This document shows, one piece after another, positions 4,756 through 19,834 of a stretch of DNA of 33,235 nt. The stretch comes from a virus. The stretch lies in IMG/VR virus record IMGVR_UViG_3300042515_001404, positions 1-33,235 of that record. One strand, written 5' to 3'. A model generated the notes under the pieces. It saw only the letters and a program-made list of their open reading frames with translations. It had not been told where the DNA came from and did no database searches. The position numbers and the translations under genes are program-made. Numbering within the stretch: the first letter of the stretch is position 1; each line of letters starts with the position of its first letter.

Positions 4756-4845
4756 GTTGTAAAACCTCCATTAAATAAATATATATATATTGACTTGCTG
4801 TATAACTTTAAATTAAGCTGGCTAGGCTCTTTTCCTCTTGGTATA

Positions 4846-8012: not shown

Positions 8013-8041
8013 ATTATAGCATTGTATAATTAAAATGAAAA
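8013..8041 (-). promoter_or_regulatory. Promoter for connector genes
   Basis: Minus-strand TTTTCA (8036-8041), a 17-nt spacer, and a perfect TATAAT (8013-8018) preceded by TGC. The -35 overlaps the foot of the terminator stem. A leader of about 20 nt with AAGGAG leads to the ATG at 7985. Confidence 0.6.
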
Positions 8042-8068
8042 GCCCCCAAATTTAATTGGGGGCTTTTC
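8037..8068 (-). terminator. Terminator after major capsid gene
   Basis: A 13-bp perfect stem (GAAAAGCCCCCAA / TTGGGGGCTTTTC) with a 6-nt loop; on the minus strand its last arm runs into CTTTTCATTTT. It lies 17 bp past the capsid stop. Confidence 0.85.
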
Positions 8069-9149: not shown

Positions 9150-9728
9150 CTAGTTAAATATTTCGTTTACGGAACCGAGGAAAGAACCGTTCCATTTTGA
9201 TTTGTTTACTGCTTGTACCGCAGACCCGCCGAGGTCTGAGGACTTCTTAATTGCTGTATCGCCTTCTACGGCATCTACACGCTTTTGAACACCATCAATG
9301 GTGCCCTTTATTTCTGTTACAGCTGCACTAAGTGCGCTGTGCTTTTCTGCTAATTCTGTGATTTGAGCATTTAAGCCCTTGCTAAAAGTCTCTACAGTTT
9401 CTTTGATTTCAGAAACCTGTAATGCATTTGCCTCTGTAGCCTTGCTAAGAGTATCTGCAAAGAATCCCTTTAGGTCTACTAACATTTTTGCAAAATCAGG
9501 CTCTTGTCCTTCAACTGCAGCTGACGCATCTGCGTCTACTGACTTAAAGACATCTACAGAAGCAGAGTCTGCATCTTCTGCTTTAGCAGCTGGTGCATCT
9601 TCGACGGCCTTGACGTTAGTCTCAACCATGGTCTCTTCAACGACGACAACTTCTTCAGCAGCTGGTGCTTCTGCAACTGGTGCTTCTGCAACTACTGGAT
9701 CTGTACCGTGTACGTTTAGTTTTTCCAC
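9150..9728 (-). CDS. Internal in-frame scaffold protein (predicted)
   Basis: Within the protease gene, a perfect AAGGAGGT (9735-9742) sits 6 nt before an in-frame GTG at 9728. Translation from there would give a 192-residue protein starting EKLNVHGTDPVVAEAP and containing only the acidic linker and coiled-coil scaffold part. This is the lambda C/Nu3 arrangement, in which a protease gene also encodes a separate scaffold from an internal start. The overlapping ATG in AATGAAG gives only a five-codon frame, so GTG is the meaningful start. Prediction only. Confidence 0.55.
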   Translation of the reverse strand: MEKLNVHGTDPVVAEAPVAEAPAAEEVVVVEETMVETNVKAVEDAPAAKAEDADSASVDVFKSVDADASAAVEGQEPDFAKMLVDLKGFFADTLSKATEANALQVSEIKETVETFSKGLNAQITELAEKHSALSAAVTEIKGTIDGVQKRVDAVEGDTAIKKSSDLGGSAVQAVNKSKWNGSFLGSVNEIFN

Positions 9729-10517
9729 TTCATTACCTCCTTGTGCGTTTGCCTGTTTTGCTATTGTTTGTGTTGCAGGCAACGTAACTCTTGACTTCTT
9801 GAATGAAGCAAGAACTTTATCTATCTCTTTTGATTTGTTTATGTCTGAGCTTTCAACCCATCCAATTAGCGTAGCCTCTTTACCAGTAACTGGAGATGAG
9901 TATGTCTTGTCTGTCGAGATGAAAACAGAGTCGCTATCTTCGCAATAAAAAATATTTTCTGTGACAACATCTGCTGCCATTCCTTTAAAAATAAGTTGAC
10001 CATTCATTTTTTCTATTGAAATAATATTGCACATTTCATTTGCTGGTGAATCTACAATTGAAAGTTCTACTAAGTCATATTCTTTAATAAAACGAACAGA
10101 CTCTCCTGTTGCCTTATTTATTTCATTATCTGAATCTTTAATCTTTCCGCCAATTGAAAAACCAGAAAGAGTTCCATCAAGAACCTTCTCCCAAGTATCC
10201 TGTGCGCCCTTTGATATGTATGAAGTTACATAAACTCCATTATAAAATTCTTTTGATTTTTGATCGTAGTAAGTCTCTGGCTTAAATGAAACTACTTTGC
10301 CAACTGCAAGTGGCTGATGCATCTCTCTAAGATTTCCTCTAAATGCTTCAAATGCCTTTAGGCTTGCTTCTGCTGTTACGACGTCACCAGTTTGATCTAC
10401 ATTATCTAGAGTTGCAAATCCAGACACGGTTCTATTCTCCCTGTTTACTTTTGTAAAAGGAACAGATAAATGAAGGTTTTGGCCGTCAGAAGACCACTGA
10501 CTTTTTTCTATGTTCAT
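9150..10517 (-). CDS. Prohead protease fused to scaffold
   Basis: A 455-residue protein. Residues 1-175 are an HK97-type prohead protease (serine protease, U35 group). His67 lies in REMHQPLAVGKV, the Ser region in TLSGFSIGG (Ser118/Ser121), and Glu151 in DLVELSIVDSPAN. Such proteases digest the scaffold and trim the capsid during maturation. Residues about 264-455 look like scaffold: a long acidic Ala/Val/Glu stretch (VVAEAPVAEAPAAEEVVVV), then a helix and coiled coil (AKMLVDLKGFFADTLSKA, ITELAEKHSALSAAVTEIKG). An internal ribosome site and GTG at 9728 could make the scaffold alone. The gene lies between portal and major capsid, as expected. Confidence 0.85.
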   Translation of the reverse strand: MNIEKSQWSSDGQNLHLSVPFTKVNRENRTVSGFATLDNVDQTGDVVTAEASLKAFEAFRGNLREMHQPLAVGKVVSFKPETYYDQKSKEFYNGVYVTSYISKGAQDTWEKVLDGTLSGFSIGGKIKDSDNEINKATGESVRFIKEYDLVELSIVDSPANEMCNIISIEKMNGQLIFKGMAADVVTENIFYCEDSDSVFISTDKTYSSPVTGKEATLIGWVESSDINKSKEIDKVLASFKKSRVTLPATQTIAKQANAQGGNEVEKLNVHGTDPVVAEAPVAEAPAAEEVVVVEETMVETNVKAVEDAPAAKAEDADSASVDVFKSVDADASAAVEGQEPDFAKMLVDLKGFFADTLSKATEANALQVSEIKETVETFSKGLNAQITELAEKHSALSAAVTEIKGTIDGVQKRVDAVEGDTAIKKSSDLGGSAVQAVNKSKWNGSFLGSVNEIFN

Positions 10518-10524
10518 ATGCTTA

Positions 10525-10553
10525 ATTTTATACTTATCTATCTAAAAAGGCAA
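10525..10553 (-). promoter_or_regulatory. Leaderless promoter of protease/capsid genes
   Basis: Minus-strand TTGCCT (10548-10553), a 17-nt spacer, and TAAAAT (10525-10530), ending 7 nt before the ATG at 10517, with no Shine-Dalgarno. Exactly the same -35, -10 and spacing occur upstream of the major tail gene. Confidence 0.5.
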
Positions 10554-19137: not shown

Positions 19138-19834
19138 TTTGGTTTTTGCCAGTTGACAAATCTTCTTCTACCCATTTTGACCTCATTTGCATAAACTCTT
19201 GTCTATGAGCATGGTCATTGTAATCTAACATGGTTACTATTGAAAATTTCATTCCAGATTCAACTGGCATGGCTCTATGTGAAAATAAATATGTAGATGG
19301 GAATATATATAGGTCTCCAGCTTTAGGCTTAATGTCTAAGTTTAATTTAGGAAAATATAGGTTCCCTCCCTCATAGTCATCGTTTACATAAGCTACAAGA
19401 GATACTGTGGCGCTGTATGAAAACCCATGATCAGCATGCTCTTGAAAATGCTGTCCTTTGCCATATCTAATACAATTCATTACTTCCCAGTAATTCATTT
19501 TTACGTTATACATATTACAATAATCTTCTACTGCTGGTAACTGATGCTGCTTTAAATCCTGCCATAAATCTGAAACCAATGATTGTGTTTTAGATTGTGG
19601 ATTAGATATTTCTCCTACCTTAATATCTTCACAATCTCTGTAAGATGGTCTTTTTTCGCTATAACCAACAAATCCAAATGTCCATTCATATCTAGACTCT
19701 TTGTCTTCAATTGCAGACTGACCTATTACATTTAACCTATTTATTACGTCAATTTCTTTTTTAATTACATCTCTATACACCCAAACTCCTGGGAAAAGCT
19801 GTTCTTTAGAAGAAAAATTATATATGTTATTCAT
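19130..19834 (-). CDS. Fe(II)/2-oxoglutarate dioxygenase (P4H type), enzyme 1
   Basis: A 234-residue oxygenase of the prolyl-4-hydroxylase superfamily. These enzymes couple oxidative decarboxylation of 2-oxoglutarate to hydroxylation of a protein or small molecule. The double-stranded beta-helix shows the full Fe(II) triad: His133-x-Asp135 (HADHGF) and His186 (FSHRA). Lys196, exactly ten residues after the distal His, takes the place that binds 2-oxoglutarate in P4H enzymes. The family hallmark VAYVNDDYEGGNLYFPKL lies between them. It is the first gene of the operon, apparently leaderless, and overlaps the next gene by 8 nt. The P4H-like core argues against DNA-repair AlkB or TET enzymes. Substrate unknown. 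Confidence 0.85.
   Translation of the reverse strand: MNNIYNFSSKEQLFPGVWVYRDVIKKEIDVINRLNVIGQSAIEDKESRYEWTFGFVGYSEKRPSYRDCEDIKVGEISNPQSKTQSLVSDLWQDLKQHQLPAVEDYCNMYNVKMNYWEVMNCIRYGKGQHFQEHADHGFSYSATVSLVAYVNDDYEGGNLYFPKLNLDIKPKAGDLYIFPSTYLFSHRAMPVESGMKFSIVTMLDYNDHAHRQEFMQMRSKWVEEDLSTGKNQNG

Follow-up and report, generated by a model that had tools for sequence, protein, structure and literature searches.

As described in PMC8508860, bacteriophages P2 and lambda obtain both protease and scaffold from a single gene; in HK97, the protease gene lies directly before the capsid gene and there is no separate scaffold, this role being served by the first 102 residues of its capsid protein (the delta domain). 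In herpesviruses, the protease and scaffold genes overlap (PMC8539031). In the lambda record, C (an S49 peptidase) and nu3 are both given as CDSs and have a common stop. The scaffold of phage T4 is encoded by a separate gene, that of P2 is thought to be freed by cleavage of gpO, and the herpesvirus scaffold UL26.5 is made from its own promoter. To our knowledge, no nested start has been described for P2 gpO.

The window analysed here is the whole virus record IMGVR_UViG_3300042515_001404 (33,235 bases; positions 1 to 33,235). On its minus strand, a portal, a protease and a capsid gene follow one another and are succeeded by a gene that weakly matches a SAP domain, with 53 nt between the portal stop and the protease ATG and no extra gene between these two (Table 1). 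As with HK97 gp4/gp5, the protease gene is found just ahead of the capsid gene. However, an HK97-type delta domain, with about 100 residues before the capsid domain, was not found in the window capsid protein. Here, the PF05065 profile starts at residue 38 of 349, and with just 37 residues ahead of the match the protein has no built-in scaffold of the HK97 type. Searching it against PDB sequences returned a single weak match (E 0.34). Since the named relatives infect Streptomyces (the full-length ones) or Rhodococcus (the partial ones), the host of the window phage is likely actinobacterial.

The protease gene of this phage is very likely a nested protease-scaffold gene, in which a leaderless start would produce the fusion and an internal start led by a Shine-Dalgarno (SD) sequence the scaffold alone, both from one mRNA in a unit closed by a terminator. 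Nested scaffolds are of a known kind; what is new is that one would occur within a protease gene of the S78 type, where leaderless and SD-led initiation appear to divide the labour. The scaffold would thereby be located in a large phage group comprising the Stanwilliamsviridae, their Rhodococcus relatives and many uncultured phages.

Table 1. Features of the portal-to-capsid region, in window coordinates
Feature	Position	Strand	Remarks
Portal gene	12154-10571	-	
Promoter-like block (TTGCCT, 17-nt spacer, TAAAAT)	10525..10553	-	9/12 consensus matches; kept in 64 lineage members
Protease-scaffold fusion ORF, 455 aa	9150..10517	-	ATG start; SD +0.6 kcal/mol; phrog_9427, PF04586
Protease domain, residues 7-158, beta-rich	10044..10499	-	Model; invariant H67 and S121
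Small beta domain, residues 168-222	9852..10016	-	Model; Streptomyces relatives have CxxC-like pairs
Block of raised synonymous conservation, codons 242-265	9723..9794	-	Ends at nested start
Internal SD AAGGAGGT	9735..9742	-	Strongest in window
Nested start codon GTG (codon 264)	9726..9728	-	ATG in some relatives
Predicted nested scaffold ORF, 192 aa	9150..9728	-	C-terminus common with fusion; putative product
Long helix, residues 342-424	9246..9494	-	Model; likely coiled-coil scaffold core
C-terminal tail, residues 425-455	9153..9245	-	Unstructured in model; conserved K-S-x-W-x-G-x-F segment
Major capsid protein gene, 349 aa	8085..9134	-	PF05065 from residue 38; phrog_1623 and phrog_10; SD -10.9
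Intrinsic-terminator-like hairpin	8037..8068	-	Closes protease/scaffold-capsid unit
Gene with weak SAP-domain match	7985-7590	-	Downstream of capsid gene

The fusion protein matched phrog_9427 (head maturation protease; 4.2e-123) and PF04586 (Peptidase_S78; 30 bits, the curated cut-off being 21; E 6.7e-07), and is homologous over nearly its full length to the Stanwilliamsviridae capsid maturation protease (phrog_9427). Residues H67 and S121, which we take to be the catalytic His and Ser of the active site, are invariant in 40/40 aligned proteins. An AlphaFold2 model was obtained from this 40-row alignment (mean pLDDT 61.8). Plain Foldseek searches against the PDB gave no match at E <= 0.001, and the fold match consequently rests on a second aligner, VIA-align, applied to the same candidates. 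T4 gp21 (5jbl) was the best match, with a Z of 9.5 over 119 residues (3.0 A), far exceeding the unrelated rows, which scored 4.6 and below. Herpesvirus proteases came next (VZV, Z 6.4; KSHV, Z 5.7; HCMV, Z 5.5; and EBV; range 4.5-6.4) and occupied 20 of the top 22 rows, although with Z values under the tool's caution level of 8 ('middling'). The window protease is an S78-type prohead protease with a fold as in T4 gp21.

The sequence-only reading had likened the gene to lambda C/Nu3. This parallel stands for the gene layout, with a single frame, the protease domain first and the scaffold as the in-frame C-terminal part, but fails for the protein, lambda C being annotated as an S49 peptidase. 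Membership in the lambda C protein family was rejected for the window protease, which falls in S78, has T4 gp21 as its best fold match and showed no Pfam match to an S49 domain at E <= 0.1. In protein, the herpesvirus UL26/UL26.5 pair, with its overlapping protease and scaffold genes and an apparently similar protease fold, is probably a nearer parallel, because the fold matches T4 gp21 best and then the herpesvirus proteases. The window case appears nearer to herpesviruses by its protease fold and nearer to lambda by its internal ribosome site; with P2 gpO, it has in common that protease and scaffold come from one gene. A herpesvirus-style nested design would occur in a phage with an apparently similar protease fold, the short form being made apparently by internal translation instead of from a nested promoter.

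On the protease side, the last structured element of the model is a helix (residues 228-243), followed by a stretch without structure (residues 244-341), a predicted disordered linker that holds codon 264. The nested start is located 21 residues past this helix and 78 residues ahead of the long helix. Its position at the protease-scaffold boundary, as proposed from the sequence alone, thus holds on a model of modest confidence, by which this boundary is predicted. When the fusion profile was searched against PDB sequences, mostly helical stalks of viral fusion proteins were found among the matches listed (60 of 276). The C-terminal tail is possibly the capsid-binding end. In the Streptomyces phage loci L082-L094, residues at about 190-220 of the protease include CxxC-like cysteine pairs, suggestive of a zinc ribbon downstream of the protease domain; one of these cysteines, C192, is retained in the window protein.

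The perfect AAGGAGGT reported 6 nt before an in-frame GTG of the protease gene is indeed present, as the single copy in the window on either strand, and is separated from this GTG by AATGAA. When the 3437 ATG, GTG and TTG codons of both strands are ranked by predicted pairing to the 16S tail, codon 264 comes first (-12.6 kcal/mol; runner-up, -11.7), and it outscores in SD pairing each of the 35 scored gene starts of the window. One copy of AAGGAGGT in 33 kb is unremarkable, with 0.88 expected and at least one copy in 59 of 100 dinucleotide shuffles; this 8-mer alone proves little, and the strong evidence is comparative. An internal ORF in another frame was also considered and rejected: the ATG within GGTAATGAAGTG opens a frame of only 5 codons and is lost in those relatives with AAAGAA, AATAAA or ACAGAA at this place.

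In all 81 close loci (own included), AGGAGG was found 7 nt ahead of an in-frame start at the homologous codon. A wider set of 196 matched loci, to which L098 (THSA-485A) does not belong, had the best-scored start within the gene in frame in 192, the four exceptions being Rhodococcus phage Francesca and three short proteases without a scaffold tail. These short proteases (L099-L101), which lack the site, were left out of the sets that follow. Among the 193 fusion loci, which represent 153 distinct sequences and include partial ones, the best-scored start of any frame was in frame in 192, and the codon alternates between GTG and ATG, so that the conservation of the site in relatives, raised in the sequence-only reading as a check, is borne out. 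As their best in-frame start, 144 loci have GTG and 49 have ATG. It is accompanied by GGAGG in 191 loci and by GGAG in two, and was always located 140-219 residues from the protein end. Because the loci are interrelated, these counts are not independent. For dereplication, 188 complete genes were reduced to 90 by shared 12-mers and, minus the three short proteases, to 87. In these 87 genes, the nested start was GTG (64) or ATG (23) and no other codon, whereas GTG accounts for 5.9% of their valine codons (210/3567, the 64 sites included). GGAGGT preceded the nested start in 85/87, at an SD-start spacing of 7 nt in 73, 10 nt in 12 and 11 nt in two genes. In an 86-row alignment, from which L197 was left out for its extra domain, column 277 contained GTG in 62 rows, ATG in 20 and another codon in four; four genes, Rhodococcus ones by their letters, have their site 22 columns off.

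The nested site is retained in Streptomyces phages at about 42% identity and, weaker in some, in Rhodococcus phages at 32-38% identity. The same site was read in 16 Streptomyces and Rhodococcus genes, being weak in two; the conserved codon is number 256 in Karimac and 268 in Faust, both Stanwilliamsviridae phages. Weak sites occur in three genes of the Rhodococcus type. NiceHouse, for which no relative was found in viral contigs, has GGAGA. In Francesca (GGAGT), the boundary site (-7.3) remains ahead of all other in-frame starts, but an out-of-frame start scores higher. Its relative L201, outside the counts, has the same weak site (-7.3) and a better in-frame start (-10.2) at codon 218, within the zinc-ribbon-like part. 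In L196 and L197, with genes of 740-750 aa, the site occurs at codon 554 or 557 and still reads AAGGAGGT-GTTGAA-GTG; about 300 extra residues separate the protease domain from the nested start in L197, just before the boundary, and the start is kept. The comparison makes a hidden in-frame start almost certain and shows its retention in a broad range of related phages. An internal ribosome site that is conserved, in frame and placed at the predicted domain boundary is the mark of a nested protease-scaffold gene of the lambda C/Nu3 type.

The start of the full-length fusion has other features. Upstream of the protease ATG, the conserved block TTTGCCTTT ... TAAAATTAAGCAT-ATG contains the promoter-like elements of Table 1; its TAAAAT -10 box ends 7 nt before the ATG, and the mRNA would therefore begin at or next to this codon, with no leader. 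A promoter matrix derived from 63 relatives, window excluded, scored 44.5 bits at this block and at most 6.8 bits elsewhere in the window. No SD precedes the protease ATG in the window (+0.6 kcal/mol). Over the 87 genes, the fusion's own start had a median of +0.6 kcal/mol and a strongest value of -2.9, none being a real SD, against a median of -13.6 for the nested start, which was the better one by more than 3 kcal/mol in 87/87. In this respect the gene differs from lambda C, which has a strong SD of its own (-11.9). A strict sigma-70 test, with the -10 at 4-12 nt before the ATG, was passed by 61/87 protease starts, 0/83 capsid starts and 407/8700 random places. The 26 failing protease starts all possess a -10-like box and fall short just in the -35, with 3/6 matches instead of 4, and in 87/87 genes a -10-like box ends 6-10 nt before an ATG devoid of SD. 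These features make a leaderless start of the fusion likely. Leaderless starts can be efficient in actinobacteria, so a scarcity of the fusion is not implied by the missing SD alone. An alternative for this step would leave the nested start real and couple the full-length start to translation of the upstream gene, as the 4-nt overlap between that gene and the protease start in four Samistivirus records might suggest. We consider it unlikely, given the 53 nt that follow the portal stop in the window and the -10-like box placed 7 nt ahead of the ATG.

Around the nested site, constraint is also found at the nucleotide level. Synonymous conservation, expressed as codon identity compared with that expected from codon usage, peaks at 0.99 at codons 253-261, compared with 0.31 on average over the gene (per-codon sd, 0.36). 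The constrained block extends about 60 nt upstream of the SD, beyond what a ribosome site needs. Other stretches of high synonymous conservation are codons 441-450, adjoining the capsid ribosome site, 337-343 and 232-238. Codons 242-258 (about 9794-9744) include near-invariant nucleotides, among them TTGCCT and GCAAAACAGGCAAAC, in the window lineage and not in the Streptomyces relatives. The short scaffold might then come from a nested transcript of its own, with a promoter inside the protease gene and the SD serving that mRNA, since the conserved block reaches upstream of the SD and its almost invariant TTGCCT is the same hexamer as the -35 box before the protease ATG. Yet, a sigma-70-type promoter with its -10 at 18-60 nt before the nested start was detected in 5/87 genes versus 286/1740 random in-gene places, so that, as judged by the sigma-70 consensus, an internal promoter is rarer than chance, and the spacing after TTGCCT varies by codon-sized gaps. 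This makes a nested transcript improbable, and sets the gene apart from UL26.5 with its own promoter.

Codon choice at the site bears on another reading, in which the scaffold would be freed only by self-cleavage of the fusion, as for P2 gpO, and the SD-like string would result incidentally from the coding of a Gln/Glu-Gly-Gly linker. Directly ahead of the boundary, an I-A-K-Q segment, common to the window lineage and to most of the Loccivirinae-type Streptomyces genes listed, is a possible cut site. However, the two glycine codons of the site are GGA then GGT in 64/64 lineage members despite a roughly even use of GGA, GGC and GGT overall, and the start is only GTG or ATG despite the rarity of GTG among valine codons; a linker needs neither. 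Invariant codons are not unique to the nested site: 6 of the 55 invariant four-fold columns are without codon change in the lineage (median entropy of such columns, 1.27 bits), only two being the Gly-Gly pair and four lying elsewhere. Cleavage as the sole source of scaffold thus appears very improbable, but it may well occur in addition to the nested start.

The RNA around the site is weakly folded, with a mean of -7.9 kcal/mol in 80 nt versus -15.3 at random places of the same gene, a control not matched for base composition, which contributes to the difference. The site region was less structured than random places of its own gene in 84/86 cases, which fits an open landing stretch. That the site acts without any initiation, either by pausing ribosomes as they elongate past the domain boundary or as a cis-acting RNA element, is scarcely credible: the synonymous constraint reaching about 20 codons upstream of the start would agree with it, but pausing needs no in-frame start codon at a fixed spacing nor a GTG/ATG exchange, and the unusually unstructured region argues against an RNA element.

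With the internal SD-led start retained as the preferred reading, the extent of the transcript can be considered. A terminator-like hairpin with a T-rich tail was found after the capsid gene in 75/79 dereplicated genes with enough sequence and after the protease gene in 0/79, and the protease/scaffold and capsid genes therefore look like one short transcription unit. The ribosome site, its conservation and the promoter-like and terminator-like elements are all read directly from the DNA; the following steps are proposed on this basis. A promoter at the protease ATG would yield an mRNA starting at or beside this codon, from which leaderless initiation would provide the 455-aa fusion in presumably modest amounts. 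Further along this mRNA, AAGGAGGT would turn codon 264 into an efficient internal start, for a 192-aa scaffold made of an acidic disordered arm, the long helix and the conserved tail, with the C-terminus it has in common with the fusion. The capsid protein would be translated from its own strong ribosome site (-10.9) before the terminator ends the unit. Fusion and scaffold might co-assemble via their common C-terminal part, so that proteases would enter the prohead in limited number and later cut the scaffold there. The scaffold product and its co-assembly with the fusion, as well as the small amounts of fusion and large amounts of scaffold put forward in the sequence-only reading, are what we infer from this arrangement. 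One mRNA would thus carry three starts: the fusion would have a leaderless one, weak or differently regulated, the scaffold the strongest ribosome site of the window, and the capsid protein another strong one, matching the need of a prohead for many scaffold and capsid subunits and few proteases.

Whether the protease-to-scaffold ratio is set by these two modes of initiation on one mRNA, leaderless for the fusion and SD-led for the scaffold, is a more tentative matter, for which we see a little less than an even chance. If so, this ratio would be sensitive to the initiation state of the host. We know of no such two-mode arrangement in lambda or the herpesviruses, and the conserved leaderless-versus-SD pair would offer a natural system for initiation competition on a single mRNA.

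In the 14 annotated Streptomyces and Rhodococcus stretches, the phrog_9427-type gene is labelled as protease only, and neither a scaffold gene name nor a nested CDS was found. In 12 of these 14, a gene for an unnamed or 'membrane' protein lies between the portal and protease genes, which makes it a possible other scaffold candidate in these stretches. The titles and abstract openings listed by literature searches contained no report of a nested start in this protease family. In a distant S78 fusion of the type found in Thermoanaerobacterium phage THSA-485A (L098, L199 and L200), AAGGAGGT also precedes an in-frame start, at codon 343, which is GTG in one of the distinct sequences and ATG in the other. 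This lineage has one relative besides itself in viral contigs, three distant partial ones in phages and none in bacterial genomes. The GTG/ATG exchange behind AAGGAGGT in L199 and L200 is a hint that S78 fusions may commonly contain nested scaffold starts.

Several minor observations were made along with these analyses. In the lambda gene C (L198), the best in-frame site is at codon 309 (-9.7), and the annotated nu3 start, at codon 239, lacks an SD (+0.5); the latter may be placed too far upstream. In the window, the protease-promoter matrix gives its second-highest score (6.8 bits) at 4838 (-), upstream of a gene for an Ig-domain protein (4755-3991, -) that has its own SD and leader. At 19834 (-) and 18419 (-), a -10-like box is found right before the first ATG, with no SD there; both genes match 2OG-Fe(II) oxygenase and endonuclease profiles, and are possible further leaderless genes.
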